64,000 nt of DNA from Actinomycetota bacterium (GTDB lineage: Bacteria; Actinomycetota; Thermoleophilia; RBG-16-64-13): NCBI GenBank assembly GCA_018830645.1, contig JAHJSA010000023.1, forward strand, positions 133,482 through 197,481, written 5' to 3'. Positions within the stretch are counted from its first letter, which is position 1. The number at the start of each line of letters is the position of its first letter. A program made the position numbers and the translations under genes. The notes beneath the pieces are model-generated. The model searched no databases and was not told the DNA's origin. It saw only the letters and a list, made by a program, of their open reading frames with translations. Positions 18,237 through 64,000 of the stretch are shown piece after piece.

Positions 18237-19415
18237 ATGGCCGATGAGAAGCGCACCGCGCGGGCACAGAAAGACGGAACCGAAAAGAAGAGTAAGGCCA
18301 CGAAGAAGGACGGATCCAGGCACGCCGACGCCGACCGGTCCACGGACACGGTATCCGCCGAAGGCAAGGCCGAAGCCCGACGACACTCCGTGGAGAAGGC
18401 CGAGACCCGGGCCAAAGCGACGGCCAAGCGCAAGGGGTTGAGGAAGCTCACCGGCTTGGACCGCGACGGACTCCTGGGGATGCTCGAGCGCATGATGCTT
18501 ATTCGCGAGTTCGAAGAGCAGTGCGCGAACCTCTACCGCGCCGGGCGCATCCGAGGAGTCACCCACACCTATCAAGGTCAGGAAGCCGTGGCGGTGGGCA
18601 CCTGCACCGCACTTCGCATCGACGACTACATCACCTCGACCCACCGCGGCCACGCCCACGTCATCGCCAAGGGCGGCGAAGTGGACCTCATGATGGCCGA
18701 ACTCATGGGCAAGGCAACCGGCTACTGCAAGGGACGCGGCGGCTCGATGCACATCGCCGACATGACCCGCGGCATCCTCGGCGCGAACGGCATCGTGGGT
18801 GGAGGCATGGGCATCGCAGTCGGCGCCGCACTGTCGTCGAAGATGCTGGGCCGCGACACTGTGGCCGTGTGCTTCTTCGGCGACGGCGCCATGAACCAGG
18901 GCATCCTGCACGAAGTGTCCAACATGGCAGCAGTCTGGAACCTGCCGGTGGTGTTCCTCGTGGAGAACAACCTGTACGGCATGAGCGCCTGTCTCGAAGA
19001 CGCGATGGCCTGCCCCGAGCTGGATCTCGCCAAACGGGCCGACGCCTACGGCATGCCCGGGGTCACCTGCGACGGGATGGACGTGGTGGATGTGTACCTC
19101 GCGGCCAAGGAGGCGGTCGAGAGGGCTCGCGGCGGCGGCGGACCGAGCTACGTAGTGTGCGACACGTACCGATTCCTCGGGCACCACGTGGGCGATCCCC
19201 TGAGCTACCGGGACAAGAGCGAGGTGGAGCCCTGGCGGGCGCTCGACCCGATCCCGCGCCTCGGCCGGCAGTTGGTGGCCGATAAGCTCGCCACGCAAGC
19301 AGAGGTCGACGCCGTCGACGCGGCCACCCGAGCAGCCATCGCCCGCGCGCTTGCCTTCGCAGAAGCGAGCCCCGATCCAGACCCCTCGAATCTGACGGAG
19401 GACGTGTTCGCATGA
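18237..19415 (+). CDS. acoA: Thiamine-diphosphate-dependent dehydrogenase E1 alpha (AcoA/PdhA-like)
   Basis: 392 residues. Residues about 65-385 form the E1 alpha fold, with THRGHAHVIAKGG and the thiamine diphosphate motif GDGAMNQG followed by ENNLYG. With E1 beta it decarboxylates a 2-oxo acid or cleaves acetoin and loads the acyl group onto the E2 lipoyl arm. Residues 1-65 are an unusual Lys/Ala/Glu-rich, low-complexity extension with no counterpart in standard E1 alpha. The gene follows the M24 gene by 16 nt and overlaps the E1 beta gene (ATGA). Order alpha-beta-E3-E2 resembles acetoin dehydrogenase operons. Confidence 0.88.
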   Translation: MADEKRTARAQKDGTEKKSKATKKDGSRHADADRSTDTVSAEGKAEARRHSVEKAETRAKATAKRKGLRKLTGLDRDGLLGMLERMMLIREFEEQCANLYRAGRIRGVTHTYQGQEAVAVGTCTALRIDDYITSTHRGHAHVIAKGGEVDLMMAELMGKATGYCKGRGGSMHIADMTRGILGANGIVGGGMGIAVGAALSSKMLGRDTVAVCFFGDGAMNQGILHEVSNMAAVWNLPVVFLVENNLYGMSACLEDAMACPELDLAKRADAYGMPGVTCDGMDVVDVYLAAKEAVERARGGGGPSYVVCDTYRFLGHHVGDPLSYRDKSEVEPWRALDPIPRLGRQLVADKLATQAEVDAVDAATRAAIARALAFAEASPDPDPSNLTEDVFA

Positions 19416-20461
19416 GTGGCACCGCGACAGGCAACGCGGCGGCCACGGGCGCCGCCGCCACCCTCACCTACGTCCAGGCACTGAACGAGGCCTTGCGCGA
19501 GGAGATGGAGCGAGACCCCACCGTGTTCGTCATGGGCGAGGATATCGCCGTCTGGGGCGGCGGGGGCGTCTTCGGCGTCACCAAAGGACTCCTCGAAGCC
19601 TTCGGCCCAGAGCGCGTACGCGACACCCCCATCTCCGAGGCCGGTTTCACCGGCGTCGGGCTCGGCGCGGCCCTCACCGGCATGCGGCCTGTGGTGGAGT
19701 ACATGTACGCCGACTTCATGATGGTGGCCATGGACCAGATCGCCAACCAGGCCGCCAAGATCCGCTACCAGTTCGGCGGCAAGGCGCGGGTACCCCTGGT
19801 ACTTCGCACCCAGGAGGGCGCGGGTCGGGGCAACGGCCCCCAGCATTCCCAGAGCCTCGAGGCATGGTTCTGCCACATCCCCGGGTTGAAGGTGGCCATC
19901 CCCTCCACCCCGGCCGACGCCAAGGGCCTGCTGAAGACCGCCATCCGCGACGACAACCCGGTGGTGTTCTTGGAGCACAAGTTGCTCTACGGCAAGAAGG
20001 GCGAGATCCCCGCCGGCGAGCACCTGGTGCCTTTCGGCAAGGCCAACGTGCTGCGAGAGGGGCGGCACGTCACGGTGGTAGGCATCCACGTGTTGAACGA
20101 CATGGCCTTGGAGGCGGCCGACATCCTCGCGGCCGAGGGCATCGAGCTCGAGGTCGTCGATCCACGTACTCTGGTGCCGTACGACCGGGAGACCGTGGCT
20201 GCGTCGATCCGCAAGACAGGACGGCTGATCGTCGCCCACCAGGCCCCCGAGCGCGCAGGCATCGCGGCAGAGCTGATCCAGTGCGCCATCGAAGACGCCT
20301 TTGACTACTTGGACGCCCCACCCGTACGTCTCTGCGCCGCCAACATGCCGGTGCCCTACGCCAAGAGCCTGGAAGACGCGGCCATGCCCCAGGTGGCCGA
20401 CATCGTGGCCGCCGCCCGTCGCTTGATGAGCGGGTCATCGGTGGTCGGTACGCGGTCATGA
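19412..20461 (+). CDS. acoB: Dehydrogenase E1 beta (AcoB/PdhB-like)
   Basis: 349 residues with the transketolase-like pyrimidine-binding domain (GEDIAVWGGGGVFGVTKGL; RDTPISEAGFTGVGLG) and C-terminal domain (VVDPRTLVPYD). It forms the heterotetramer with the alpha subunit. The start overlaps the alpha stop and the stop overlaps the E3 start, so the three are translated as one block. Confidence 0.92.
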   Translation: MSGTATGNAAATGAAATLTYVQALNEALREEMERDPTVFVMGEDIAVWGGGGVFGVTKGLLEAFGPERVRDTPISEAGFTGVGLGAALTGMRPVVEYMYADFMMVAMDQIANQAAKIRYQFGGKARVPLVLRTQEGAGRGNGPQHSQSLEAWFCHIPGLKVAIPSTPADAKGLLKTAIRDDNPVVFLEHKLLYGKKGEIPAGEHLVPFGKANVLREGRHVTVVGIHVLNDMALEAADILAAEGIELEVVDPRTLVPYDRETVAASIRKTGRLIVAHQAPERAGIAAELIQCAIEDAFDYLDAPPVRLCAANMPVPYAKSLEDAAMPQVADIVAAARRLMSGSSVVGTRS

Positions 20462-21873
20462 CCCAAGAGTGCGATCTCGCAATCGTGGGTGCCGGCCCGG
20501 GCGGATACGTGGCGGCCCTACGGGCGGCCCAACTCGGCATGAAGGTGACCCTGGTGGAACGTGCCGCCCTGGGAGGCGTGTGCCTCAACCGGGGATGCAT
20601 CCCCACGAAGGCGATGCTGCACGTCGCCGCACTCCTCCACGAGATCCGCCACGCTGAAGACTTCGGCATCGTGGTCGAAGGTCCCGTTCGCATCGACTAC
20701 CCGGCGGCGGTCCGCCGCAGGGAGCAGGTGGTGTCGCGCCTCACTCGGGGTGTGGGAACGCTGCTCAAGCACGCGAAGGTGCAGGTGTTGACGGGAGAAG
20801 CGGCCTTCGCAGGACCCACCACACTCGAGGTGAGCCTCACCGGCAAGGACGGCGCCGCCGGCGGCCACGAAACGGTCGCGGCTTCACACATCATGGTGGC
20901 CACCGGGTCGCGCCCCGCCGACTTCCCCGTGCCGGGGGCTGTACACCCGCGGGTGATCGACTCCGACGGGGCCCTGGCGTTGGATGAAGTGCCCCGGCGT
21001 CTCCTGGTGATCGGAGGCGGGGCGGTGGGCTGCGAGTGGAGCACCATCTTCGCCCGCTTCGGAGCGGAGGTGACCCTGGTGGAGATGCTCCCCAGCCTGC
21101 TTCCCCGTGAAGACACCGACCTGGGCGCTGTGCTGGCCGACAGCATGACCAAGATGGGCGTCGCCGTTCGCACCGGCACGTCCGTGGCTTCGATAGCACC
21201 GTCTGGTGACGCCCTCGCAGTGGAGTTGACCGGCGAACACGCGGGCGCGCTCGAGGCGGACTACGTGCTGGTGGCAGCCGGGCGTGCGCCCCTCACCGAG
21301 GGCCTCGGCCTGGCAGCTGCCGGCGTGGCCACGACGGAGCGGGGCTGGGTCATCGCAGATCAGGCCGGTCGGACCAACGTACCCTCGGTGCTGGCGATCG
21401 GCGACGTCACCGGCGGCGCACTCCTCGCCCACGTGGCGTCACGGCAGGGCGTGGTCGCGGTGGAGACCCTGGCGGGCCACTCCCCCGCTCCCGTGCGCGA
21501 CGACCGCATCCCTTCAGTCACCTACACCGACCCGGAAGTGGCCAGCGTTGGTCTTACCGAGTCCGCGGCCCGCGACTTGGGCCTCGCCGTCGAAGTGGGG
21601 AGGTTCCCCTTCTCGGCCAGTGGGCGCGCGGTCGCTGCGGGCACAGAGGCCGGGCTCGTGAAAGTGGTCGCCGATTCGCGCTTCGGGAGAGTGCTCGGCG
21701 TGCACATGATAGGCCCCCACGTGGGAGAATTGCTCGCCGAGGCCGTCCTCGCTTTGGAGCTTGAAGCCACGTTGGACGAGATGACGTCGGTGATACGGGC
21801 CCACCCCACCCTCTCTGAAGCGGTGGGCGAAGGCTCGCTCGCCGCCCTGGGCATCGCCCTGCACACGGTGTAG
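20458..21873 (+). CDS. lpdA: Dihydrolipoamide dehydrogenase (E3)
   Basis: 471 residues. FAD-binding GAGPGGYVAALRAAQLG at the N-terminus, redox-active disulfide GGVCLNRGCIPTK (CLNRGC, about residues 42-47), NAD motif GGGAVGCEWS and a C-terminal catalytic HPTLSEA segment. It reoxidises the E2 lipoyl group and makes NADH. Here the start overlaps the E1 beta stop; the next gene follows after 19 nt. Confidence 0.94.
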   Translation: MTQECDLAIVGAGPGGYVAALRAAQLGMKVTLVERAALGGVCLNRGCIPTKAMLHVAALLHEIRHAEDFGIVVEGPVRIDYPAAVRRREQVVSRLTRGVGTLLKHAKVQVLTGEAAFAGPTTLEVSLTGKDGAAGGHETVAASHIMVATGSRPADFPVPGAVHPRVIDSDGALALDEVPRRLLVIGGGAVGCEWSTIFARFGAEVTLVEMLPSLLPREDTDLGAVLADSMTKMGVAVRTGTSVASIAPSGDALAVELTGEHAGALEADYVLVAAGRAPLTEGLGLAAAGVATTERGWVIADQAGRTNVPSVLAIGDVTGGALLAHVASRQGVVAVETLAGHSPAPVRDDRIPSVTYTDPEVASVGLTESAARDLGLAVEVGRFPFSASGRAVAAGTEAGLVKVVADSRFGRVLGVHMIGPHVGELLAEAVLALELEATLDEMTSVIRAHPTLSEAVGEGSLAALGIALHTV

Positions 21874-53758: not shown

Positions 53759-55615
53759 CTATTCCCGCCCCATGACTTCGATCTCTCTCCACGCCACCCA
53801 GGATGGGCTCACGGTGGTGATGATCTTGACGTATCGGATATCAGCCAGAGGAGTTGCCGGATCGAACTCCACCCTGCCCATATCCTCGGTGGATCCGCTG
53901 AATTCCTCGAGGAGCGTCAAGCTGTCTTCCTCTCTTCCGCCCCAGATTTGATGGACGGTCCTACCCGCCGGATACTGCGCGAGGACGAGGCGTATCGCGC
54001 TGACAGCAATCGGCTCACCAAGATCGACTTGGATCCATTGAGGGGGATCATCGCCGGAACTCCAAATGGTCTCCGAGTCTCCGTCAACAGCATTGAGTGG
54101 TGGCGAATCGGGTATGGACTTGGACGCTGTCGCGGTGATAGAAGCAGGCTCGCCGTCCGACGAAGCGGTGGAAGGCGAAAGCGATTCGTGCCCGGCCGCG
54201 CGATACTCCACGTTCCCGCCGACCATCGTCATCCATACTTCGATATCGATCAGGTCGTCGGGATCTACCGTCCTCGGATCGGCGGAGAGGACGAGCAGAT
54301 CGGCGAACTTCCCCGCCTTCAGGCTGCCCACTTCGGTTTCGCGGAAGAGCGCGTAGGCGGCGTTGATGGTCATCATGGACAGGGCTTCGTCCACCGTGAT
54401 CCTCTGAGCGGCCAGCCAGGCGGGTGGCGGGCAGATCACACCATCGTCATCGACTCCCTGGCGCGTCACGTAACTGTACAGGTGCTCGAAGGGGTTCAAG
54501 GGGAGGTAGGGCCAATCACTGTGCCAGGCGACCGGCAGACCCGGCGTGGCGTCCAGGAAGGCCCGCCAATTCTCGAACCAGGGGAGCTCCGCAGCGAACG
54601 TGGAGGAGTAGATGCCGGTATCTACTTCCTGGCAGGTCGGAAAGAATCCGAACGCGATGGGGACGATCCCGATCTCGGAATAGCGAGGCAGAAGATCGGG
54701 GCGGGCAAAGGAGTTGTGATCGATGCGGTGGCGCAGAACGTTCGGACCGCCGTCCAGAGCGCTTTCGATCGCGTCCATGGCCGACTCGATGGCGCGGTCC
54801 CCAATGGCGTGTAGGACTACCTGATACCCGGCCCCGTCTGCGTCCGCCACGATCTTGTTCAACTCATCTTGGGCGAACCAGAGGTCTCCGTAGCCGCCGT
54901 CGGGATACTCGATGCTCAGTGCGTACTTGCCGCAGACCCCGCCGTCAGTGAATACCTTGATGCCACCGATGCGCAGCATCTCTCCAGGATTCCGAGTGGG
55001 CGCTACATCCTTGTACCAGTCTCCCAGCACATCACCGCAAGGGCCGGAGTAGGTCAGATAGAGACTGGTGCGGATGCGCAGCTTGCCTGCCCGCTCGAAG
55101 GCCTGCATCTCGTCCAGGAATTCGGGCGGGGTATACATATTGGCCAGGGTGGTGATTCCGTTCTCCAGAGCCTGCTGTTGCGACTGATCCAGGTCGAGCC
55201 CCTGCGCAGCTGCATCATTGAAGACGTGATCATGGGCATCCACGAACCCGGGCATGACGGTCTGCCCGTGCAGGTCGATGATCTGAGTCTCAGGGCCGCT
55301 CATGGCGATGACTTCATCGTCGGTACCTACCCCGATGATCACCTCACCCTTGATGGCGATGGCCTGGGCCGTGGGTTGGCTTGGTTCCATTGTAAGAAGG
55401 ATGCCGTTGTGAAAGATGATGTCGGCGGGCCCGGCTTGTTCGACTTGCGATGGAGTCGTTGTCGGCGCGACGTCCGCATCTACTGGGGCCGTGGTTGGAG
55501 GAGGAACCACCAGTTCCGTTGACGTGGTTGAAGGCTCCGCGCAGGCCGTCAGAAGGATGGAGAATGCGAGGCATACGGAAGCGATTGCCCGCAGGCTACG
55601 CGTCGAGTTGAACAT
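53759..55615 (-). CDS. Exported amidohydrolase (YtcJ-like) lipoprotein with C-terminal discoidin-like domain
   Basis: 618 residues. Signal peptide with lipobox LTAC (Cys 25), then a Thr/Pro/Ala linker. The amidohydrolase domain (about 63-475) has DAHDHV metal His residues, a Lys in GIKVFTDGG, His in VVLHAIGDRA and RIDHNSF and Asp in AWHSDWP. A C-terminal segment (about 490-617) has AVDGDSETIWSSGDDPPQW and QVDLGEP, as in F5/8 type C sugar- or surface-binding domains. This fusion is uncommon. It should act outside the membrane. No clear ribosome site. Confidence 0.85.
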   Translation of the reverse strand: MFNSTRSLRAIASVCLAFSILLTACAEPSTTSTELVVPPPTTAPVDADVAPTTTPSQVEQAGPADIIFHNGILLTMEPSQPTAQAIAIKGEVIIGVGTDDEVIAMSGPETQIIDLHGQTVMPGFVDAHDHVFNDAAAQGLDLDQSQQQALENGITTLANMYTPPEFLDEMQAFERAGKLRIRTSLYLTYSGPCGDVLGDWYKDVAPTRNPGEMLRIGGIKVFTDGGVCGKYALSIEYPDGGYGDLWFAQDELNKIVADADGAGYQVVLHAIGDRAIESAMDAIESALDGGPNVLRHRIDHNSFARPDLLPRYSEIGIVPIAFGFFPTCQEVDTGIYSSTFAAELPWFENWRAFLDATPGLPVAWHSDWPYLPLNPFEHLYSYVTRQGVDDDGVICPPPAWLAAQRITVDEALSMMTINAAYALFRETEVGSLKAGKFADLLVLSADPRTVDPDDLIDIEVWMTMVGGNVEYRAAGHESLSPSTASSDGEPASITATASKSIPDSPPLNAVDGDSETIWSSGDDPPQWIQVDLGEPIAVSAIRLVLAQYPAGRTVHQIWGGREEDSLTLLEEFSGSTEDMGRVEFDPATPLADIRYVKIITTVSPSWVAWREIEVMGRE

Positions 55616-55639: not shown

Positions 55640-55921
55640 TCACAGAGAGTACTTCTCGCGCATGCGGCGCGCGACCTCATCGTGTGAGACGACTTGGCCG
55701 GCGGCTATCTGTGCCTCAGAAACTGACAGATCACGCAGCAATTCGATCTCGTCGATCAGGCTTTCGTACACGCTCGGATCGAGGAGAACGGCGGCACTGC
55801 GTCCGTGCTGGGTCAGGATCAGCGGGCGCCCGGTCGAATGCATCTGCTCGATCATGGCGGAGGTGTTCGCACGGAACTCAGTCACGGGGAGCACGTCGGT
55901 GGATGGACGGATAGGGGGCAT
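55640..55921 (-). CDS. Orphan Phd/YefM-type antitoxin
   Basis: 93 residues: LPVTEFRANTSAMIEQM, PLILTQHGRSAAVLLDP and a C-terminal helix, typical of Phd/YefM. The expected toxin gene downstream is absent; the amidohydrolase lies there instead (25 nt). The toxin may have been lost, or it may act as a stand-alone repressor. Confidence 0.87.
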   Translation of the reverse strand: MPPIRPSTDVLPVTEFRANTSAMIEQMHSTGRPLILTQHGRSAAVLLDPSVYESLIDEIELLRDLSVSEAQIAAGQVVSHDEVARRMREKYSL

Positions 55922-56014: not shown

Positions 56015-56680
56015 TCATCGATACTTCTCCTCAAGGTAGCGCCGATAGTCGCTCTCATCCAAACCGAAGCCGGCGAACGCGCCTCGAAGGGAGCGGACAC
56101 GGGGGGTGATGTCGATGTCGGGATCCGTGGTGTCGATCAACGCAAGGAAGCCGGAGACCAGCCGCGAGAGCGACTCACCGCACCCTGTGAACTCGAAGTT
56201 GACCCGGGTGGCCGCGATGTTGACCGCCATGGTCACGTCCGCCAACTCGATGAGCTTCTGCTCGATCGGATAGCCTCTCTCGTCGCGCAGCCACCTCAGG
56301 ACCTGCGACAGGTGCCACACGGCCGAAACGCCCTCGTGGACCGGGATGGGCCCAGGCGTGCGGGGAGACAGCAGGAGCTTGCGCATGTTCTGACGGCTCT
56401 TCCCCACAAGCTCGGCAACGTCGGTGAAGCCCACGAAGTCGGGGGACGCTTCGATGAGCCTGGCTTGGGGGAGCGCCGCGAGCACATCACGGATGGCGCT
56501 CACGAGCGCCGCCTCAGCGATCGTTGCTCTACGGATGAAGTCAAGGGCGATCCGGCCGGGAATACCGATGCCGATGATCGCATCGTCGCATCCGCTCGCC
56601 GCGAGTCTCTCGACACACTCCTCTGGACCGCAACCGACGGCAGAGGTGTCGAACCTCAGTGAGAAGTCGTATTCGTTCAT
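56015..56680 (-). CDS. HTH-containing partner of a HicA-like protein
   Basis: 221 residues from ATG 56680. An internal helix-turn-helix-like stretch FTDVAELVGKSRQNMRKLLL (about residues 88-107) suggests DNA binding. N-terminal EYDFSLRFD resembles a small beta-strand domain. It follows the 85-residue gene by 10 nt, so the pair is an operon. I know no named family for it; by analogy it is the antitoxin of a two-gene module. Confidence 0.6.
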   Translation of the reverse strand: MNEYDFSLRFDTSAVGCGPEECVERLAASGCDDAIIGIGIPGRIALDFIRRATIAEAALVSAIRDVLAALPQARLIEASPDFVGFTDVAELVGKSRQNMRKLLLSPRTPGPIPVHEGVSAVWHLSQVLRWLRDERGYPIEQKLIELADVTMAVNIAATRVNFEFTGCGESLSRLVSGFLALIDTTDPDIDITPRVRSLRGAFAGFGLDESDYRRYLEEKYR

Positions 56681-56690
56681 GCCCACATCA

Positions 56691-56948
56691 CTACTCGTCA
56701 TCGTCTCCACCGGTGCACCTGGCCACGACTCTTCGCAGCTGCTTGGCATGGTTCTGCGGATTGCGCGGTGTGCTCCATATGCTGGTGATGCAGAATTCCC
56801 CGCAGTGACAACGCGGGCTGTTGTGCGGGCAGTACATCGTTCCCCATGCGTGCGAACTCTTCCCGCCGACCTTGATTCGCCATCCACTGGCCTCAGCGTG
56901 TGCGATAGCGGCCTCGATGTCGGGGTCCGGGTGCTTCCTCCGGGCCAT
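56691..56948 (-). CDS. Small HicA-like protein, candidate toxin
   Basis: 85 residues. The N-terminal helix (DPDIEAAIAHAEASGWRI), a Ser-His pair in GGKSSHAWG and the C-terminal STPRNPQNHAKQLRRVV give a HicA-like (double-stranded-RNA-binding fold) outline, with four extra Cys residues (CPHN..CHC..C) that could bind Zn. ATG 56948 has AAGGAAG upstream. A perfect promoter and operator lie 21-58 nt upstream. Confidence 0.65.
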   Translation of the reverse strand: MARRKHPDPDIEAAIAHAEASGWRIKVGGKSSHAWGTMYCPHNSPRCHCGEFCITSIWSTPRNPQNHAKQLRRVVARCTGGDDDE

Positions 56949-57437: not shown

Positions 57438-57523
57438 ACGGCCGAAGGAGAGAGGCCCGCGTCGGATCGGTGGGGCCGCTTGCGCGTTCAACGATCAGCC
57501 CTGCGCCTCGAGGCCTCAGTGCT

Positions 57524-58438
57524 CTATGACTCCAGGTCGGGATCGAAGTAGTCACTGTCGACTCGGGCCATCGACAAGGTCTTTGTCACGGTGACACCCA
57601 CGCGGTGCCGAACCATGAGCCGGGCGAGCTCGGGCCCATCGATGAGGACGATGCGCTTCTTGATCGACCTGGCGAAATCTCTTGCCGGACCGGTGAACTT
57701 GTCGGTCGTGAAGAAGACGCCCTTGTCCGTGCCGTGCTCGTCGAGCGAGCCCGCGAACTCGCGGATGAGCTTCACGTCGACGGGCGTGTTGTAGCGCTTG
57801 GCCTGAACGACGACTTGGTCGAGGCCGAGAGTGTCTTCTCTGATCACACCGTCAAGACCGCCGTCGTGACTGCGAGCAGTAAGAGTCGTGCGCTCCGGGT
57901 CGGAGCCGCCGTAGCCCATGGCGGTGAGCACCTCGAGGACGATGCGCACGAAGCGCAGCGGGTCGACCGCACGCAGGCGCTCAAGGACTTCTGCGGCCAC
58001 ATGGTCGCGCACTTCGTCATAGGCGGCCTGGAGCCGCTCCTCGGGGGTCGCCACGTCACCGTCGATGACGGCGGGGTCCAGTGGCTTGAGGACACTGCGC
58101 CCCATGAACTCCAGATAGCCGGGGTATCGCTCCAGCGTCTTGGTGGTGATCTTGGCGGGCTTCTCGGCGAGGAGCGCCCGCCCGCTGTCGGCAATGGCAT
58201 ACTGCCCACGGCCAGGTGAATCGATCACACCCGCGCGCTTCATGTAGTGGAGCGCCCACAGGATCCGGTTGCGGTAGCGAGGCATCGCACCGCTCGGCAA
58301 CATCTCGGCCTGATCTTCAGCAGTAACGCCAAGCCGTGCGGCGACCTGGTTACTCACATCTCGCGGCCGATGGATCTCACCGTCGACGAGCGTCTCGAGC
58401 ACAGGAAGCATCAGGGACGCGAAACTGGGAACTGCCAT
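57524..58438 (-). CDS. mrr: Mrr-type restriction endonuclease
   Basis: 304 residues. The N-terminal winged-helix Mrr_N domain (about 10-95, RYRNRILWALHYMKRAG) and C-terminal Mrr_cat domain with catalytic GGLDGVI and VVQAKRY (the D...QxK pattern), RLMVRHRVGV at the end. It cuts modified foreign DNA (type IV restriction). Confidence 0.92.
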   Translation of the reverse strand: MAVPSFASLMLPVLETLVDGEIHRPRDVSNQVAARLGVTAEDQAEMLPSGAMPRYRNRILWALHYMKRAGVIDSPGRGQYAIADSGRALLAEKPAKITTKTLERYPGYLEFMGRSVLKPLDPAVIDGDVATPEERLQAAYDEVRDHVAAEVLERLRAVDPLRFVRIVLEVLTAMGYGGSDPERTTLTARSHDGGLDGVIREDTLGLDQVVVQAKRYNTPVDVKLIREFAGSLDEHGTDKGVFFTTDKFTGPARDFARSIKKRIVLIDGPELARLMVRHRVGVTVTKTLSMARVDSDYFDPDLES

Positions 58439-58539: not shown

Positions 58540-58875
58540 CTACAACGCTACCAGCCGCTCCAACCTCTGCAACACGGCGGCAGTGCTGTCCGGCGGCACC
58601 TTGCAGAGAAACTCCGCGCCGCGCGCCCTCCAGTCAAGGCTCTTGGCCTGATCCGATAGTACGACTCCCTGCACGGGAAGCCCGTCCGGAACCGCGACCT
58701 CGAACGGATAGCCCTTCACCTGACTGGTGATCGGACAGAGGATAGCGAGGCCGACCTTGCCATTGTAGGAGCCGGGTGAGATGACCAAGGCGGGCCGACG
58801 GCCTGACTGCTCGTGTCCGACGCTCGGATTCATCGTGATCCAGACGACGTCGCCGCGTTCCGGGGTCCACGGCAT
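58540..58875 (-). CDS. mazF: MazF/PemK-type toxin
   Basis: 111 residues. GDVVWITMNPSVGHEQSGRRPALVIS is the MazF/PemK core in two overlapping parts, with PITSQVKGYPFE and VVLSDQAKSLDW. Sequence-specific endoribonuclease. It starts 2 nt after the MazE gene. Confidence 0.93.
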   Translation of the reverse strand: MPWTPERGDVVWITMNPSVGHEQSGRRPALVISPGSYNGKVGLAILCPITSQVKGYPFEVAVPDGLPVQGVVLSDQAKSLDWRARGAEFLCKVPPDSTAAVLQRLERLVAL

Positions 58876-58877
58876 CC

Positions 58878-59120
58878 TTACCAGGCCTCCGCACCCTGCG
58901 CCGGACCGGTGTCCACCTCACCATGCAGGTTGGCATCGGTGACGCCATCGAGTAGCTCATCGAGGGTGGGCGCCCACGGGGACAAGGGCTGGACGAGAAG
59001 GCCCCCTTTGACCAGACGCATCTCCACCGCGGAGTCGTCCTTCAGACCGACTTCCTCCGCGAAGGACTTGGGGATTCTGACAGCAAGGCTGTTTCCCCAC
59101 CTCTGGACCTTCGTCTTCAT
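58878..59120 (-). CDS. mazE: MazE-type antitoxin
   Basis: 80 residues from ATG 59120, with GGGAGG 5 nt upstream. AbrB-like N-terminus KVQRWGNSLAVRIPKSFAEE is diagnostic. The C-terminal tail binds the toxin. A GTATC-N9-GATAC repeat lies upstream. Confidence 0.93.
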   Translation of the reverse strand: MKTKVQRWGNSLAVRIPKSFAEEVGLKDDSAVEMRLVKGGLLVQPLSPWAPTLDELLDGVTDANLHGEVDTGPAQGAEAW

Positions 59121-59138
59121 GACGACCTCCCGGCCGTA

Positions 59139-59157
59139 GTATCTACAATGAGGATAC
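59139..59157. promoter_or_regulatory. mazEF operator candidate
   Basis: GTATC (59139-59143) and GATAC (59153-59157) form inverted half-sites separated by 9 nt, 19 bp before mazE. Probably bound by the MazEF complex. Confidence 0.5.
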
Positions 59158-59166
59158 CACACGGAC

Positions 59167-59292
59167 TCACCGCAGGCGCGCCCTCGCAGCGGCGAAGACC
59201 TCGTCCGCGGGGACGGCCCGCGCCGTGCCGCTGTCAAGCTCGGCGTCGCGCCGGACTGCCTCATCGAGGCTGACGTCAAGGTGAACCACCCC
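59167..59292 (-). pseudogene. RelB-like (addiction-module antitoxin) C-terminal remnant
   Basis: On the minus strand about 40 codons read DEAVRRDAELDSGTARAVPA then DEVFAAARARLR, matching the end of addiction-module antitoxins (EI.RR.AEL.SG...P..EV.ARLR). The N-terminal part is missing. It may be a short gene from GTG 59289 or, more likely, a relic. Confidence 0.45.
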
Positions 59293-59347
59293 GGGTTCAC
59301 AGGCTTCGGGAACACGTCGAGTTACTGAGACAGGATCGAAGGAGCGC

Positions 59348-60523
59348 TCAAACCCAGTCGAACCGAGGGGGCGAGGGGAGGGCTCCGGCCCCCGCGGCCG
59401 ACAAGACAAGAATCCTGTCCGTCTTTGTTGCGTTGCCTTTCGTGTCACCCCAGATTCGAGAGACCTTGCGGTCGTTGGGCAGGCGGTCCTCAATGATCTG
59501 TCTGACCACCAGGCTCCCAGGGACGCAGCTCTCAGCGACATGCTCCGCAAGTCGAACAGTTCGCGCGCCTAGCCTGACGTCGCCAATCACGAGACAGATG
59601 TAGCCGTCATCAGTGATGACGTTTGCCAGCCGATGCAGTACCAGAGACATGAAGCGGAGGTACTTGGTAAGGGAGCCCGTGGAAAAGAGGACGTTGTCGA
59701 CCTCTCGCGGAGTCTCGCCCAAGAGCCAGAGTCTTATCCAATTGAACTTGCCGTACTTCATGACATGGAGGTACGGTGGCGATGAAAACACCAATTTCGC
59801 CTTGCTGTTCCCGGACTCGATGCGACCGGACAGGGTCGCATCCTGCGCCCAGGCCATCCCTCTCTGTGGAAGCGCAAGGTGACCTCGATAGCGATTCAGC
59901 CGTGACGCCAGCATCTCAACCACATCGACTTCGGGTGCAACGAGCGCGTGGTCGTGAATGTACTTGAGGACGTAGCCGGGAGCCATGGCAAACGTGTTCG
60001 GCATGGCAACTGAGAGGCCTTTGGCCACGCCGTTCGCGTTCGCGTTCAGGTGGAGAATCCCCATCAGTGCGGCCAGAATGAACGCGTCCTCGGCGGTGCT
60101 TCGATCCAATGTCGATCGGAGCCACAGAAGCTGGCCGAGAGTGCCAGGTGCAAAGACTGCGCGAATGGCCTCTGGCTCGTCGCGGGTCGGAAGCACTCGC
60201 AGTTGCCGCTTCAGCCTCCTCACCCGACTGTCGAGAGATTCCCAGTCCGGCGGGTTGGTCTTGGCCGACGTAAGCACGTTGGCCAAGGGGTTCAAATCCG
60301 ACCCCATTCCCGCGCGACCGAGAGCACACGCCTCCAGCGGAGTGGTGCCGCGACCAGAGAAGGGATCGTAGACGACGTCACCTTCGCGCGTCAACCACTT
60401 GATGAACACGTGCGGCATCGAGGGTGGGAACATCGCCATATAGGAGCAAAGCGAGTGGAGTGGGTGCCCCCAGCGCGGTGGAGCGTTTCGCCATTCTCCC
60501 GCAATCAGTTCCGCCGCTTGCAT
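59348..60523 (-). CDS. DNA methyltransferase (N4-cytosine/N6-adenine)
   Basis: 391 residues; ATG 60523 is 6 nt after a GGAG, an upstream TTG is adjacent. AdoMet motif I is DPFSGRGTTPLEA (about 53-65), and the catalytic motif IV is SSPPYL (about 252), of the N4-cytosine type. Target recognition probably lies between. It is the last gene of the DndD-like operon, 20 nt downstream, and likely marks host DNA for that system. Confidence 0.88.
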   Translation of the reverse strand: MQAAELIAGEWRNAPPRWGHPLHSLCSYMAMFPPSMPHVFIKWLTREGDVVYDPFSGRGTTPLEACALGRAGMGSDLNPLANVLTSAKTNPPDWESLDSRVRRLKRQLRVLPTRDEPEAIRAVFAPGTLGQLLWLRSTLDRSTAEDAFILAALMGILHLNANANGVAKGLSVAMPNTFAMAPGYVLKYIHDHALVAPEVDVVEMLASRLNRYRGHLALPQRGMAWAQDATLSGRIESGNSKAKLVFSSPPYLHVMKYGKFNWIRLWLLGETPREVDNVLFSTGSLTKYLRFMSLVLHRLANVITDDGYICLVIGDVRLGARTVRLAEHVAESCVPGSLVVRQIIEDRLPNDRKVSRIWGDTKGNATKTDRILVLSAAGAGALPSPPRFDWV

Positions 60524-60542
60524 CAAGGACTCCCCGTGTGGC

Positions 60543-60938
60543 TCATCTGTCCGCGGCGCCTAGAACCTCGGCTATCGATCGTCCATTCCTGACAATCTCG
60601 TTGTGCAAGTAGTGAACACCCTTGTTGGCAAGACTCTGGGCCCACCTGTACGGACTATCGCCATAAGCCGGCACCAAGCTCATGATTAGCAGCTTGAGGT
60701 CTCCGTCCGGGTCGAGGGTCTGCACGCTGAACTTAGTCGTGTATCCGCTGTCAACCTCGTCCTCTCGCGGCCGCAAGCCCCTCGCCAAAGCAACTGTCAC
60801 GGCAACCCGATAGACGTCAACTTCGTCTCTGAACCAACGCGTGTTCGAACGCAACTCCTTCAACAGGTCGTCCGTTGAATCGGGCAGACCAACTTGTGTC
60901 CGGTCCGCTGCTTTCGCTGCGCTACCTTCGGTGCCCAT
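60543..60938 (-). CDS. 131-residue protein in DndE position
   Basis: It follows the DndD-like gene with an 8-nt gap and GGAGG before the ATG. Mostly helical in pattern, with DSGYTTKFSVQTLDPDGDLKLL in two overlapping parts and NKGVHYLHNEIV. In dnd operons a DndE of similar size sits right after DndD. Sequence identity to DndE is not obvious to me, so this is inference from size and position. Confidence 0.6.
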   Translation of the reverse strand: MGTEGSAAKAADRTQVGLPDSTDDLLKELRSNTRWFRDEVDVYRVAVTVALARGLRPREDEVDSGYTTKFSVQTLDPDGDLKLLIMSLVPAYGDSPYRWAQSLANKGVHYLHNEIVRNGRSIAEVLGAADR

Positions 60939-60946
60939 GGAACCTC

Positions 60947-62920
60947 CTACACCGCTTCCGGCACGATTCTGCTGCGTGTCTCGGTGACTCGCACGACCTC
61001 GTAGCGGCGCGCGATGTTTACTCCTGGCTCGTCAAGATCTCGATCCTTGTCGATTTCGCCCGAGTGCACCAAGACAACGACCTGCGGGCCCAGCTGAGGG
61101 AGGAATCGAATCACGTTCTTGCGGTGGCCCTGGTCGAGACGAGCGAAGTTGCTGTCCATCACAACTGGCCCCTCGCGGACAGCGGCACGATTAAGCCCGC
61201 CAATGAGGGAGAGTGCGACAATCTGTTCCGCGCCGGCTGATCTGCCAGGAACTGGCTGGCCGTTGCTGTCGAGAAGAGCGAGCCCATAGTTCTCGTCAAT
61301 CCTCAGACCCTGATAGGCCGGCTCTGTCGTCAGAGTCTTGAAGATCTCTGAGGCGTCCGCTCCGACTGTCTCCCGAAGGCTGTCGCGGAAACCGTCAACC
61401 GCTGATTCGAACAACTCGGCCAAGAAGCGGCAGACGGCGGTCTTGAAAGCCAATGCCGGGTTCGCGTCAGGGAGTTTGTTGAGCTGGGTTTGCTTCTTGG
61501 TGCGCTCGTGGGCTAGCTCAAGAAGGATTCCCTCTTCGTCGCCGATGATCGTCTCAACCTTGTTGCACTGCCCGCGCAAGCGTTGCCAGCGCTCGTACTT
61601 TGCGTTGTAGTCCCCGTACGCTCTGCCCACCATGCTCGCGGAGATCTCGTCGATGCGGGTCTCAAGCTCGCCGATCGCGATCTCCGCCCCGGCTATCACT
61701 TCCTGGCGCATTCTGACTTCCATGAGCGCGTCCTGGGAGTTGAACTTCTCGTACGTGTCTGCTCGACGCACTGTGTCAAGGAGCGCGCTCATGTCATCGG
61801 AGTAGTGGGTTAGCTTCAGCCTTGTCGCTTCGTCTTGTACCCGCTTCAGAGCCGAGTGGTCTAGGCTAGTCTGGCATAGGGCGCATCTCTTGGCCCTGGT
61901 GGACTCCTGAAGCCTCTCCAGCCAATGGAGATCTTGAAGGGCGACCATCGCCCGCGCGCGCTCGGCTCGCAGATTCTCCAACCGCTGGGCAACCTGTTGG
62001 ACAACCGGAAGCCACCACTTCCGGTGCACCAAGTCGGCGATGGCATCTTCGGCTCCTTCGAGTCGGTTCTGCTGCTCCTCAATCTGAGATTCCAGTATGC
62101 CCTTCTGTGAGATCTTGGAGGCGATATCCGCATTCTGTTTGACGGCGAGTTCGGCTGCAGCAGTGTCTTTCAGCAGCTTTGTTCGCTCAACTTCCAGTTC
62201 GGCAATATCGCTCTTCTTCGCACGGATAGCATTATCAAGTCTACCCACTTCCTCCAAGAGCGCAGCGTGCTTCTCCCTCTTCCGGAGATACGCGTTCTGC
62301 AATTGTTCAGATTCCGTCGCTAGCTCTTGGAGAGCAGGGTAAACTCTGAGGGCTGGAAGGCCCAAGATCTTCTCAATTGCCTGCTTCACTGCGGCCGCTT
62401 CTTGTTCGGGGTTCTTCAGAAGATCTTCATAATCCTCGAGCATTTCGGCATCGAAGAAGAAGAACCGCGAAACATCCTCACTCAGTATGTTCTGGAGGTA
62501 TGGATCAATCGAACTCTCAGGGAATACCCTCGTTCCGGACTTAAGCTCCTTGGTTATCAGGAATTCCGCGTCCGAACTTGGCGGGCCGCTCGCCACTGCC
62601 TCTCGTCTCAGTAAATACTCAGCATCATCATGCTGAAACACAAGATTGACTGCCAAGGAGAAATCGCCCTCGGACTCTGCATCACGACTCAGGAGTTGCT
62701 CCTTCGTCTCAGGGTCAACCAGCGGAATCTCCCGTCCTTGTCTATCGGTCGCCCTTCCGTAGAGGCACCAACGTATAGCTTGCAGAAGCGATGTCTTGCC
62801 CTTCATATTCTCGCCAAACACGAGAACAATCTTCGCCGTCGGCGTCGTTGAGAGGTCCAACGGATCCTGCTGGCCGTAGTAGCATCGAAAGTTCTTGAGC
62901 TGAATGCTGCTAATCCTCAA
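60947..62920 (-). CDS. DndD-like SMC/Rad50-family ATPase
   Basis: 657 residues from TTG 62920. Walker A GENMKGKTS (about 35-43), a long coiled coil (about 195-505) with a CALCQTSL zinc-hook-like motif near 344, signature region SAGAEQIVALSLI and Walker B/D-loop VVMDSNFARLDQGHRKN. The RLDxxHR ending is typical of DndD. In dnd systems DndD supports phosphorothioate modification or restriction; here dndB and dndC are not seen. The operon is helicase, 80-residue protein, this, 131-residue protein, methyltransferase. Confidence 0.88.
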   Translation of the reverse strand: MRISSIQLKNFRCYYGQQDPLDLSTTPTAKIVLVFGENMKGKTSLLQAIRWCLYGRATDRQGREIPLVDPETKEQLLSRDAESEGDFSLAVNLVFQHDDAEYLLRREAVASGPPSSDAEFLITKELKSGTRVFPESSIDPYLQNILSEDVSRFFFFDAEMLEDYEDLLKNPEQEAAAVKQAIEKILGLPALRVYPALQELATESEQLQNAYLRKREKHAALLEEVGRLDNAIRAKKSDIAELEVERTKLLKDTAAAELAVKQNADIASKISQKGILESQIEEQQNRLEGAEDAIADLVHRKWWLPVVQQVAQRLENLRAERARAMVALQDLHWLERLQESTRAKRCALCQTSLDHSALKRVQDEATRLKLTHYSDDMSALLDTVRRADTYEKFNSQDALMEVRMRQEVIAGAEIAIGELETRIDEISASMVGRAYGDYNAKYERWQRLRGQCNKVETIIGDEEGILLELAHERTKKQTQLNKLPDANPALAFKTAVCRFLAELFESAVDGFRDSLRETVGADASEIFKTLTTEPAYQGLRIDENYGLALLDSNGQPVPGRSAGAEQIVALSLIGGLNRAAVREGPVVMDSNFARLDQGHRKNVIRFLPQLGPQVVVLVHSGEIDKDRDLDEPGVNIARRYEVVRVTETRSRIVPEAV

Positions 62921-63152
62921 CTGTACTCACCACCTCGTCGACAGTGGCATCCACGAGTAATCGTGCTTCGCGTATGAAGGCAGTCAAACTACGTTCCCAC
63001 TGGTGTTTCCAAGCGAGCTCGAACAAGGCACGGATCATCTCATCCGAGAGAGCTCCCTGCAGTTGAGGATCAGCAAGGGCTCGCCGCCGCTCGTTCGCCA
63101 AGTGAAGCAGGACCCGGAGCGCTTCTTGTTTTGTACGCGCGTCGCCCGACAA
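62910..63152 (-). CDS. 80-residue helical protein in the defence operon
   Basis: TTG 63152 overlaps the helicase stop and is fixed by GGAGG with 6-nt spacing. The protein is charged and helical (KQEALRVLLHLANERRRAL; ALFELAWKHQWERSLTAFI). The stop overlaps the DndD-like start. Family unknown. Strict overlaps show it is a true operon member. Confidence 0.7.
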   Translation of the reverse strand: MSGDARTKQEALRVLLHLANERRRALADPQLQGALSDEMIRALFELAWKHQWERSLTAFIREARLLVDATVDEVVSTVED

Positions 63153-63153
63153 T

Positions 63154-63999
63154 CTAGCCCTCCTCCTGATTGGTCTCGAACTCAATGGCCTGATCCTCGA
63201 GAGCCGAGGCCAACGCATCCAGCTTGTAACGACAGGCCTGGTTTCGCGCGTGGGCGGCAAACACTCTTGCACGCTCAAGATCCCGATTCAGGACCTGTTC
63301 TTCGTCCTCGTTCTGCCGGCAGACTAGCAGGTCGTAGATGTCGGCAGAGTACTTGCCTGGAGTCCGTCGAAGGACCCGACCCCTCCTCTGGATAAACTGT
63401 CGCGGGTTGGTGGATGACGCTAGGATGAGGGCGTGATCAACTGCGGGGATGTCGACGCCTTGGTCGAGGCACCGAATGGACACGAGTACACCGCCGTGGC
63501 GCTGAAACGACCTCAAGGTTGCCTGGGCGTCTCCCAACATTTGCGTGTGGTAGTCAAGAACATTCAGGCCAGCCGACACCAGACGGTCACTTACCTCGTT
63601 CAGCTGGTCTGAATCCTCGCAGTACAGCAGCCACCGATCGCCCGATTGATATTCCGCCTGAACGACTGCGCAGGCAAGAGCAGTCTTTGCCCTGGCCTTC
63701 TTCACGACTCTCGCGCGCTGAATCAGCAGCATCTCCAGCGCGTCACTCGGTTCCGCGTCGGGCTTCGCGGCTGCCCGAGCCTGGATCACGGCGATGCGCC
63801 TGCTCAGCTCATCGTATCTCTCGGCCTCGTCCTCCTCAAGGAGAACGGTACGGACGTGGTAGTCGTACGGAACAAGCCTGCCTGCGAGGAGTGCCTCGGG
63901 AATACCGAAGGGTGGTGGTAACACACAGCCAAAATAGTCGAAGAGCGCGGCCGTGCCCTCGGGATCGTTGAAGCGCTGGGGTGTGGCGCTGAGGCCGAG
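63154..63999 (-). CDS. SF2 helicase, C-terminal part (cut by window edge)
   Basis: The frame is open to the right edge. The first residues are LGLSATPQRF, helicase motif III, so the Walker A and DEAD/DEAH motifs lie outside. The rest is a RecA-like second domain with GGVLVSIRCLDQGVDIP (motif V) and QRRGRVLRR (motif VI, Arg finger). COG1061-type restriction helicases are the nearest. First visible gene of the defence operon. Confidence 0.92.
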   Translation of the reverse strand, partial: LGLSATPQRFNDPEGTAALFDYFGCVLPPPFGIPEALLAGRLVPYDYHVRTVLLEEDEAERYDELSRRIAVIQARAAAKPDAEPSDALEMLLIQRARVVKKARAKTALACAVVQAEYQSGDRWLLYCEDSDQLNEVSDRLVSAGLNVLDYHTQMLGDAQATLRSFQRHGGVLVSIRCLDQGVDIPAVDHALILASSTNPRQFIQRRGRVLRRTPGKYSADIYDLLVCRQNEDEEQVLNRDLERARVFAAHARNQACRYKLDALASALEDQAIEFETNQEEG

Positions 64000-64000
64000 G

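Follow-up and report, generated by a model that had tools for sequence, protein, structure and literature searches.

The 64,000-nucleotide stretch of DNA that we analyzed (hereafter, the window) carries at its right end five intact, tightly spaced open reading frames (ORFs) on the minus strand, between positions 59348 and 64000. Listed from the first gene of the operon to the last, they are as follows:

63154-64000, minus strand: C-terminal part of pbeA, open at the window end (the full gene encodes 716 aa)
62910-63152, minus strand: small protein of 80 aa in the PbeB slot (TTG start; assigned from the ORF and its junctions)
60947-62920, minus strand: PbeC, a DndD-type ABC/SMC-like ATPase of 657 aa (TTG start; PADLOC PbeC)
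60543-60938, minus strand: PbeD, 131 aa (ATG start; predicted DndE fold)
59348-60526, minus strand: N4-type DNA methyltransferase, 392 aa (TTG start; Pfam and PADLOC matches)

The order is A-B-C-D on a single strand and then the methylase, and the successive junctions measure 1 nt, -11 nt (an overlap), 8 nt, and 16 nt, so that the five genes coupled by overlaps and short gaps of which a first-pass annotation had spoken were all recovered. A scan inside the operon found no convincing terminator, and promoter and terminator scans gave a signal no better than chance. Extension of the contig beyond the window, a check which that annotation had proposed, completes pbeA at window-equivalent position 65304 (63154-65304, or L002:6636-8786, where L002 denotes our coordinates for the locus in the same contig and the window position equals the L002 position plus 56518). 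The A-B-C-D-methylase order on one strand is kept in an Acidimicrobiales MAG (L062), and the conserved gene order there and in related loci excludes a chance arrangement.

The first gene was recovered over nearly its full length by the PADLOC PbeA model (PDLC02707, E = 2.4e-181), and Pfam searches found ResIII, Helicase_C, and a weak PLDc_2 match in its product. The initial description of this protein as a helicase is right as to its SF2 (ResIII-like) module but incomplete, since PbeA is a nuclease-helicase in which an N-terminal PLD/HKD nuclease domain precedes the helicase. The residues of the PLD site (H168 and K170 of the HxK motif and G185, S186, N188, and E189 of the GSxNE motif), as well as the Walker A and DExH residues of the helicase, are invariant in 64/64 labelled PbeA homologues and are common to the methylase-linked and dndC-linked members. 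In a Foldseek search with an AF2 model of the N-terminal domain (pLDDT 91.5), SauUSI was the best match, followed by the NgoAVII R protein, with other PLD-family enzymes below. No PD-X-D/EXK motif was seen in PbeA by Xiong 2019 (PMC6459918). The predicted fold together with the residue invariance favors PbeA as a working nuclease, without settling the point.

The two small proteins of the operon had no match in the PADLOC, Pfam, or NCBIfam family models. The 80-aa protein shows a weak similarity (36% identity in the alignment) to a protein in the same slot on an Aurantiacibacter plasmid, which is annotated by NCBI as a "DNA modification system-associated small protein." For the 131-aa protein, an AF2 model built from a 40-sequence alignment (pLDDT 89.3) contains two strand-helix-helix (ribbon-helix-helix) units. 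The top 14 PDB matches of this model in Foldseek are all DndE structures (7x4e, 4lrv, and 5wtu; probability 0.99-1.00), at a TM score of ~0.6 and with E-values of only 0.006-0.15. DndE had at first been thought absent; on its predicted fold, the 131-aa protein is PbeD, a DndE homologue.

The third gene product was unified over its full length with PbeC (PADLOC PDLC02725, E = 4.9e-120) and is also matched by the PADLOC DndD model (E = 4e-51). It carries a Walker A motif, GENMKGKT, and a CxxC zinc hook, CALC, in the middle of its coiled coil, which bears out the earlier recognition of a DndD-like ATPase with a zinc hook. A sequence search of the PDB with PbeC recovered no relative, and our literature search for PbeC with a zinc hook found nothing. 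The fifth gene product had been called an N4-type methyltransferase, and profile searches agree (Pfam N6_N4_Mtase, 6.8e-14; PADLOC MTase_II, 1.4e-38), as do its PDB sequence matches, which are DNA cytosine-N4 methyltransferases. Its motif I (DPFSGRGT) lies before motif IV (SSPPY), an order permuted relative to the beta class, and the catalytic cores of both motifs are conserved in nine homologues. Judged from the SPPY motif, the methylation product is probably m4C, and the ~190 residues that separate motifs I and IV could leave room for a target-recognition domain.

The locus is thus a methylase-linked PbeABCD module, of a kind that has already been recognized. The first-pass annotation could not match the gene set to a named system; PADLOC names PbeA and PbeC, and the methylase-linked form of this set is a described defense locus in Xiong 2019 (PMC6459918), where methyltransferase genes were found near 155/320 PbeAC pairs without dndCD, and in Rakesh 2024 (PMC10853773), which reports this core together with cytosine-N4 methylases that are circularly permuted. 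In our literature search, we found no experimental test of methylase-linked PbeABCD. The locus shares with DndCDEA-PbeABCD (PMC6459918) homologous PbeA and PbeC, a protein in the PbeB slot, a DndE-like PbeD, and the order A-B-C-D. It differs in that a methyltransferase is the operon partner and in that the PbeC hook is CxxC here but CxC in the sampled dndC-linked clade; it further lacks the defining feature of that phosphorothioate (PT)-based system, as a search for dndC (TIGR03183) found none in its own genome, which is 99.84% complete. This agrees with the absence of dndC supposed at the outset. Canonical Dnd (DndBCDE) was likewise rejected, given the absence of dndC and the score of PbeC against the NCBIfam DndD model TIGR03185 (161 bits, below the cut-off of 245.85). 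The CxC ABC-ATPase/DndE systems of PMC10853773, for which that paper refers to earlier work of its own group, have the same HKD nuclease and SF2 helicase, small protein, ABC ATPase, DndE, and linked permuted N4 methylase (the m4C product being predicted in our case). They differ in their hook, for which this locus and the entire methylase clade have CxxC; the term "CxxC" does not occur in the main text of that paper. The Hma system of PADLOC (helicase-methylase-ATPase) comprises similar gene types, and a 40-residue stretch of methylase motifs resembles HmaB (PADLOC, 1.7e-6), but there was no match to HmaA or HmaC, and PbeA, PbeC, and PbeD match the Pbe and DndE families. SauUSI and NgoAVII share the fold of the PbeA N-terminal domain, the PLD active-site residues, and the SF2 motor, and differ in being one- or two-gene systems without an ABC ATPase or DndE.

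The operon lies in a 12.2-kb block (57508 to ~69689; L002:990-13171) that is absent from a genome of the same genus (G046); this genome lacks the PbeABCD system, and its collinear region (L113) has 122 bp in the corresponding place. The left flank of the block (window 57458-57507) matches L113 5866-5915 with 96% identity over 50 bp, and the right flank (window-equivalent 69690-69724) matches L113 6038-6072 with 97% identity over 35 bp. The absence of the block from this genome and the GC content of the five genes (57-61% versus 66% in window positions 1-50000) support the proposal that the operon was acquired by transfer. We saw no integrase in scans of the block, and a tRNA search of the window found none. 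Besides the five operon genes, the block contains Mrr, MazFE, an AAA_13 ATPase, and an FRG-domain protein:

57524-58438, minus strand: Mrr-type type IV restriction enzyme (Mrr_cat 4.8e-33, Mrr_N 7.1e-28, PADLOC mREase_IV 4.1e-80)
58540-58875, minus strand: MazF/PemK-like toxin (Pfam PemK_toxin 6e-26)
58878-59315, minus strand: MazE-like antitoxin (Pfam MazE_antitoxin 1e-11), 32 nt after the methylase
L002:8907-11528 (window-equivalent 65425-68046), same strand as pbeA: AAA_13 ATPase, 873 aa (PADLOC candidate PDC-S06, E = 2.6e-219)
L002:11618-12604: FRG-domain protein adjoining the PDC-S06 ATPase (PADLOC candidate PDC-S15)

The AAA_13 ATPase gene lies 120 nt upstream of pbeA and is possibly a separate defense gene. 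AbiEi/AbiEii stand beside the equivalent site in G046, so the site looks like a defense hotspot. The presence of Mrr, a modification-dependent nuclease, near the methylase raises the question of whether its specificity avoids the mark of the methylase. A second stretch of the window that is not shared with the same-genus genome, 52512-57457, encodes the following:

53759-55615: amidohydrolase-like ORF
55640-55921: Phd/YefM antitoxin
56015-56887: protein matching PADLOC PDC-M06B

The distribution of the system is sporadic: under strict cut-offs, PbeA relatives occur in 4/299 genomes of the class (its own included) and PbeC in 1/397 genomes of the phylum. When a three-sequence PbeA alignment was used for a pattern scan, 80 related loci were recovered, and two plasmid loci plus that of the window brought the set to 83; single-protein PbeC scans of genome contigs and viral contigs recovered no relatives, whereas the PbeA alignment scan succeeded. 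This sample is weighted towards the PbeA proteins nearest to that of the window, with flanks of at most 10 kb. Labels for methylase and dndC came from iterated HMM searches of the ORFs of the loci and from a dndC search of 15 related genomes, five of which have a dndC (TIGR03183) above the cut-off. Among the 83 loci, the partner is a methylase of the window type in 8, a beta-type methylase in 17, a large or tandem (PglX-XI-like) methylase in 15, and a DPPY-type methylase without a Pfam D12 match in 2 (L052 and L053); dndC is the partner in 23, and the remaining 18 have none or are truncated. Of the 65 scorable PbeC loci, 42 have a methylase nearby, 23 have dndC, and none scored with both. In the vicinity of one of the loci, that of Actinocatenispora comari, no methylase or dndC was found; it has two PbeC/PbeD sets on one strand (L019:12332-14302 and 18823-20778).

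The methylase partner is associated by kind and mobile in place. At other loci, the window-type methylase is immediately upstream (L042), adjacent on the opposite strand (L023), or 2-5 kb off, and methylases of the beta type mostly lie directly upstream of pbeA. With the methylase 2-5.6 kb distant or on the other strand in several relatives, the coupling is looser than the operon of the window would suggest. On a PbeC tree of 78 rows, 65 of them scored, the methylase and dndC labels switch twice, as against a mean of 19.3 and a minimum of 15 in 200 shuffles, and on a PbeA tree they likewise switch twice (shuffle mean 19.3, minimum 14). These are quick trees with some long branches, among them those of the window and L062. 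Taking the methylase kinds and PT together, there are eight changes on the tree, and the related systems seem to have swapped self marks several times. One of the two switches is a gammaproteobacterial group (L014, L017, and L025) that has dndC nearby and yet falls inside the methylase clade, which looks like a return to phosphorothioation. In each of these three loci, pbeD is followed by a gene for a protein of 914-936 aa. The hook is CxxC in 51 rows, which are all of the methylase-clade members examined, and CxC in the 27 others, with a single change on each of the PbeC and PbeA trees. Since there is one such change on the tree and CxxC is kept in the three lineages that returned to PT, the hook follows ancestry and not chemistry. 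This clade-level pattern of hook and partner may be the new part of our findings.

We consider it probable that this methylase-linked PbeABCD locus works as an ATP-dependent restriction-modification system. In such a system, the methyltransferase would mark a short motif on the host DNA, probably with m4C, while the ABC ATPase PbeC, dimerized through its zinc hook, would scan DNA together with PbeD, a predicted DndE-fold DNA reader, for the very motif that the methylase marks. Where this motif is met in unmethylated form, as on phage or plasmid DNA entering the cell, PbeCD would recruit or activate PbeA, a translocase of the SF2 type with a PLD nuclease resembling SauUSI and NgoAVII, which would then cut the DNA or block its replication; PbeB might be a small adaptor or regulator. 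The shared target motif, the self-protection by methylation, and cutting as the effector step are what we infer. In the archaeal PT-linked system, full defense requires each of the four pbe genes and PT-modified virus escapes (PMC6459918), with which a role for modification as the self mark fits. The suggestion made at the outset that methylation here stands in place of phosphorothioation is probably right.

The effector step is where the most serious alternative arises. In the tested archaeal system, viral DNA was not degraded, and SNJ1 DNA was intact 6 h after infection of the DndCDEA-PbeABCD strain (PMC6459918), which leaves room for an effector step other than cutting; PbeABCD could bind unmodified invader DNA and stop its replication, with the PLD domain structural or only nicking. 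We regard this as unlikely, though deserving real weight, because HxK and GSxNE are invariant in all 64 homologues irrespective of linkage, because the fold of the PbeA N-terminal domain is nearest to those of ATP-dependent restriction nucleases, and because Rakesh 2024 (PMC10853773) argues for cleavage from the HKD domain. As the restriction-modification reading leaves the effector step open, the two overlap, and the likelihoods that we express should not be expected to sum to certainty.

The DndD-like character of PbeC and the predicted DndE fold of PbeD lend themselves to a different division of labor, in which PbeC-PbeD would guide the methyltransferase as its target-recognizing part, by analogy with DndD-DndE, and PbeA would restrict alone. 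The pairing of different methylases with related PbeCD is compatible with this, as is the proposal, in Rakesh 2024 (PMC10853773), that a DndDE core recruits different nucleobase modifications. However, modification was made by dndCDEA, with pbeABCD as the exclusion cassette, in Xiong 2019 (PMC6459918). The methylases moreover look complete, with a spacer that could hold their own target-recognition domain, and we therefore find a guiding role rather unlikely. The opposite polarity, with methylated DNA as the target of PbeABCD and a methylase that has no link to it or serves another purpose, draws on the location of some methylases kilobases away and on the nearest fold to the PbeA N-terminal domain, SauUSI, which is a 5mC-dependent type IV enzyme and targets modified DNA. 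Nevertheless, the host's own DNA would come under attack if the methylase of the operon is active, the methylase linkage is clade-wide, and modification protects in the PT system (PMC6459918), which together make this highly improbable. Least credible is that the low-GC inserted block, with MazEF directly downstream of the operon, is a decayed or inactive island kept by this toxin-antitoxin pair, as all five frames are open and every catalytic residue tested is intact.

Beyond the restriction-modification reading of this locus, we advance, as a tentative proposal that could well prove wrong, that PbeABCD is a general exclusion engine with an interchangeable self mark, the CxxC clade having operated with four or more kinds of methylase and returned to PT once, in gammaproteobacteria. 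If this is true, the same PbeCD-PbeA machine reads either chemistry and would sense a missing modification at its motif, rather than a given mark.

A gene set first taken as unnamed is now identified as methylase-linked PbeABCD, and the locus provides a compact, intact example for asking whether methylation can serve PbeABCD as a self mark, as was raised in 2019 and 2024. The two partner switches, the clade-fixed hook, and the one reversal to PT furnish natural pairs of systems whose modification modules could be exchanged, and such exchanges bear on what PbeCD recognizes.
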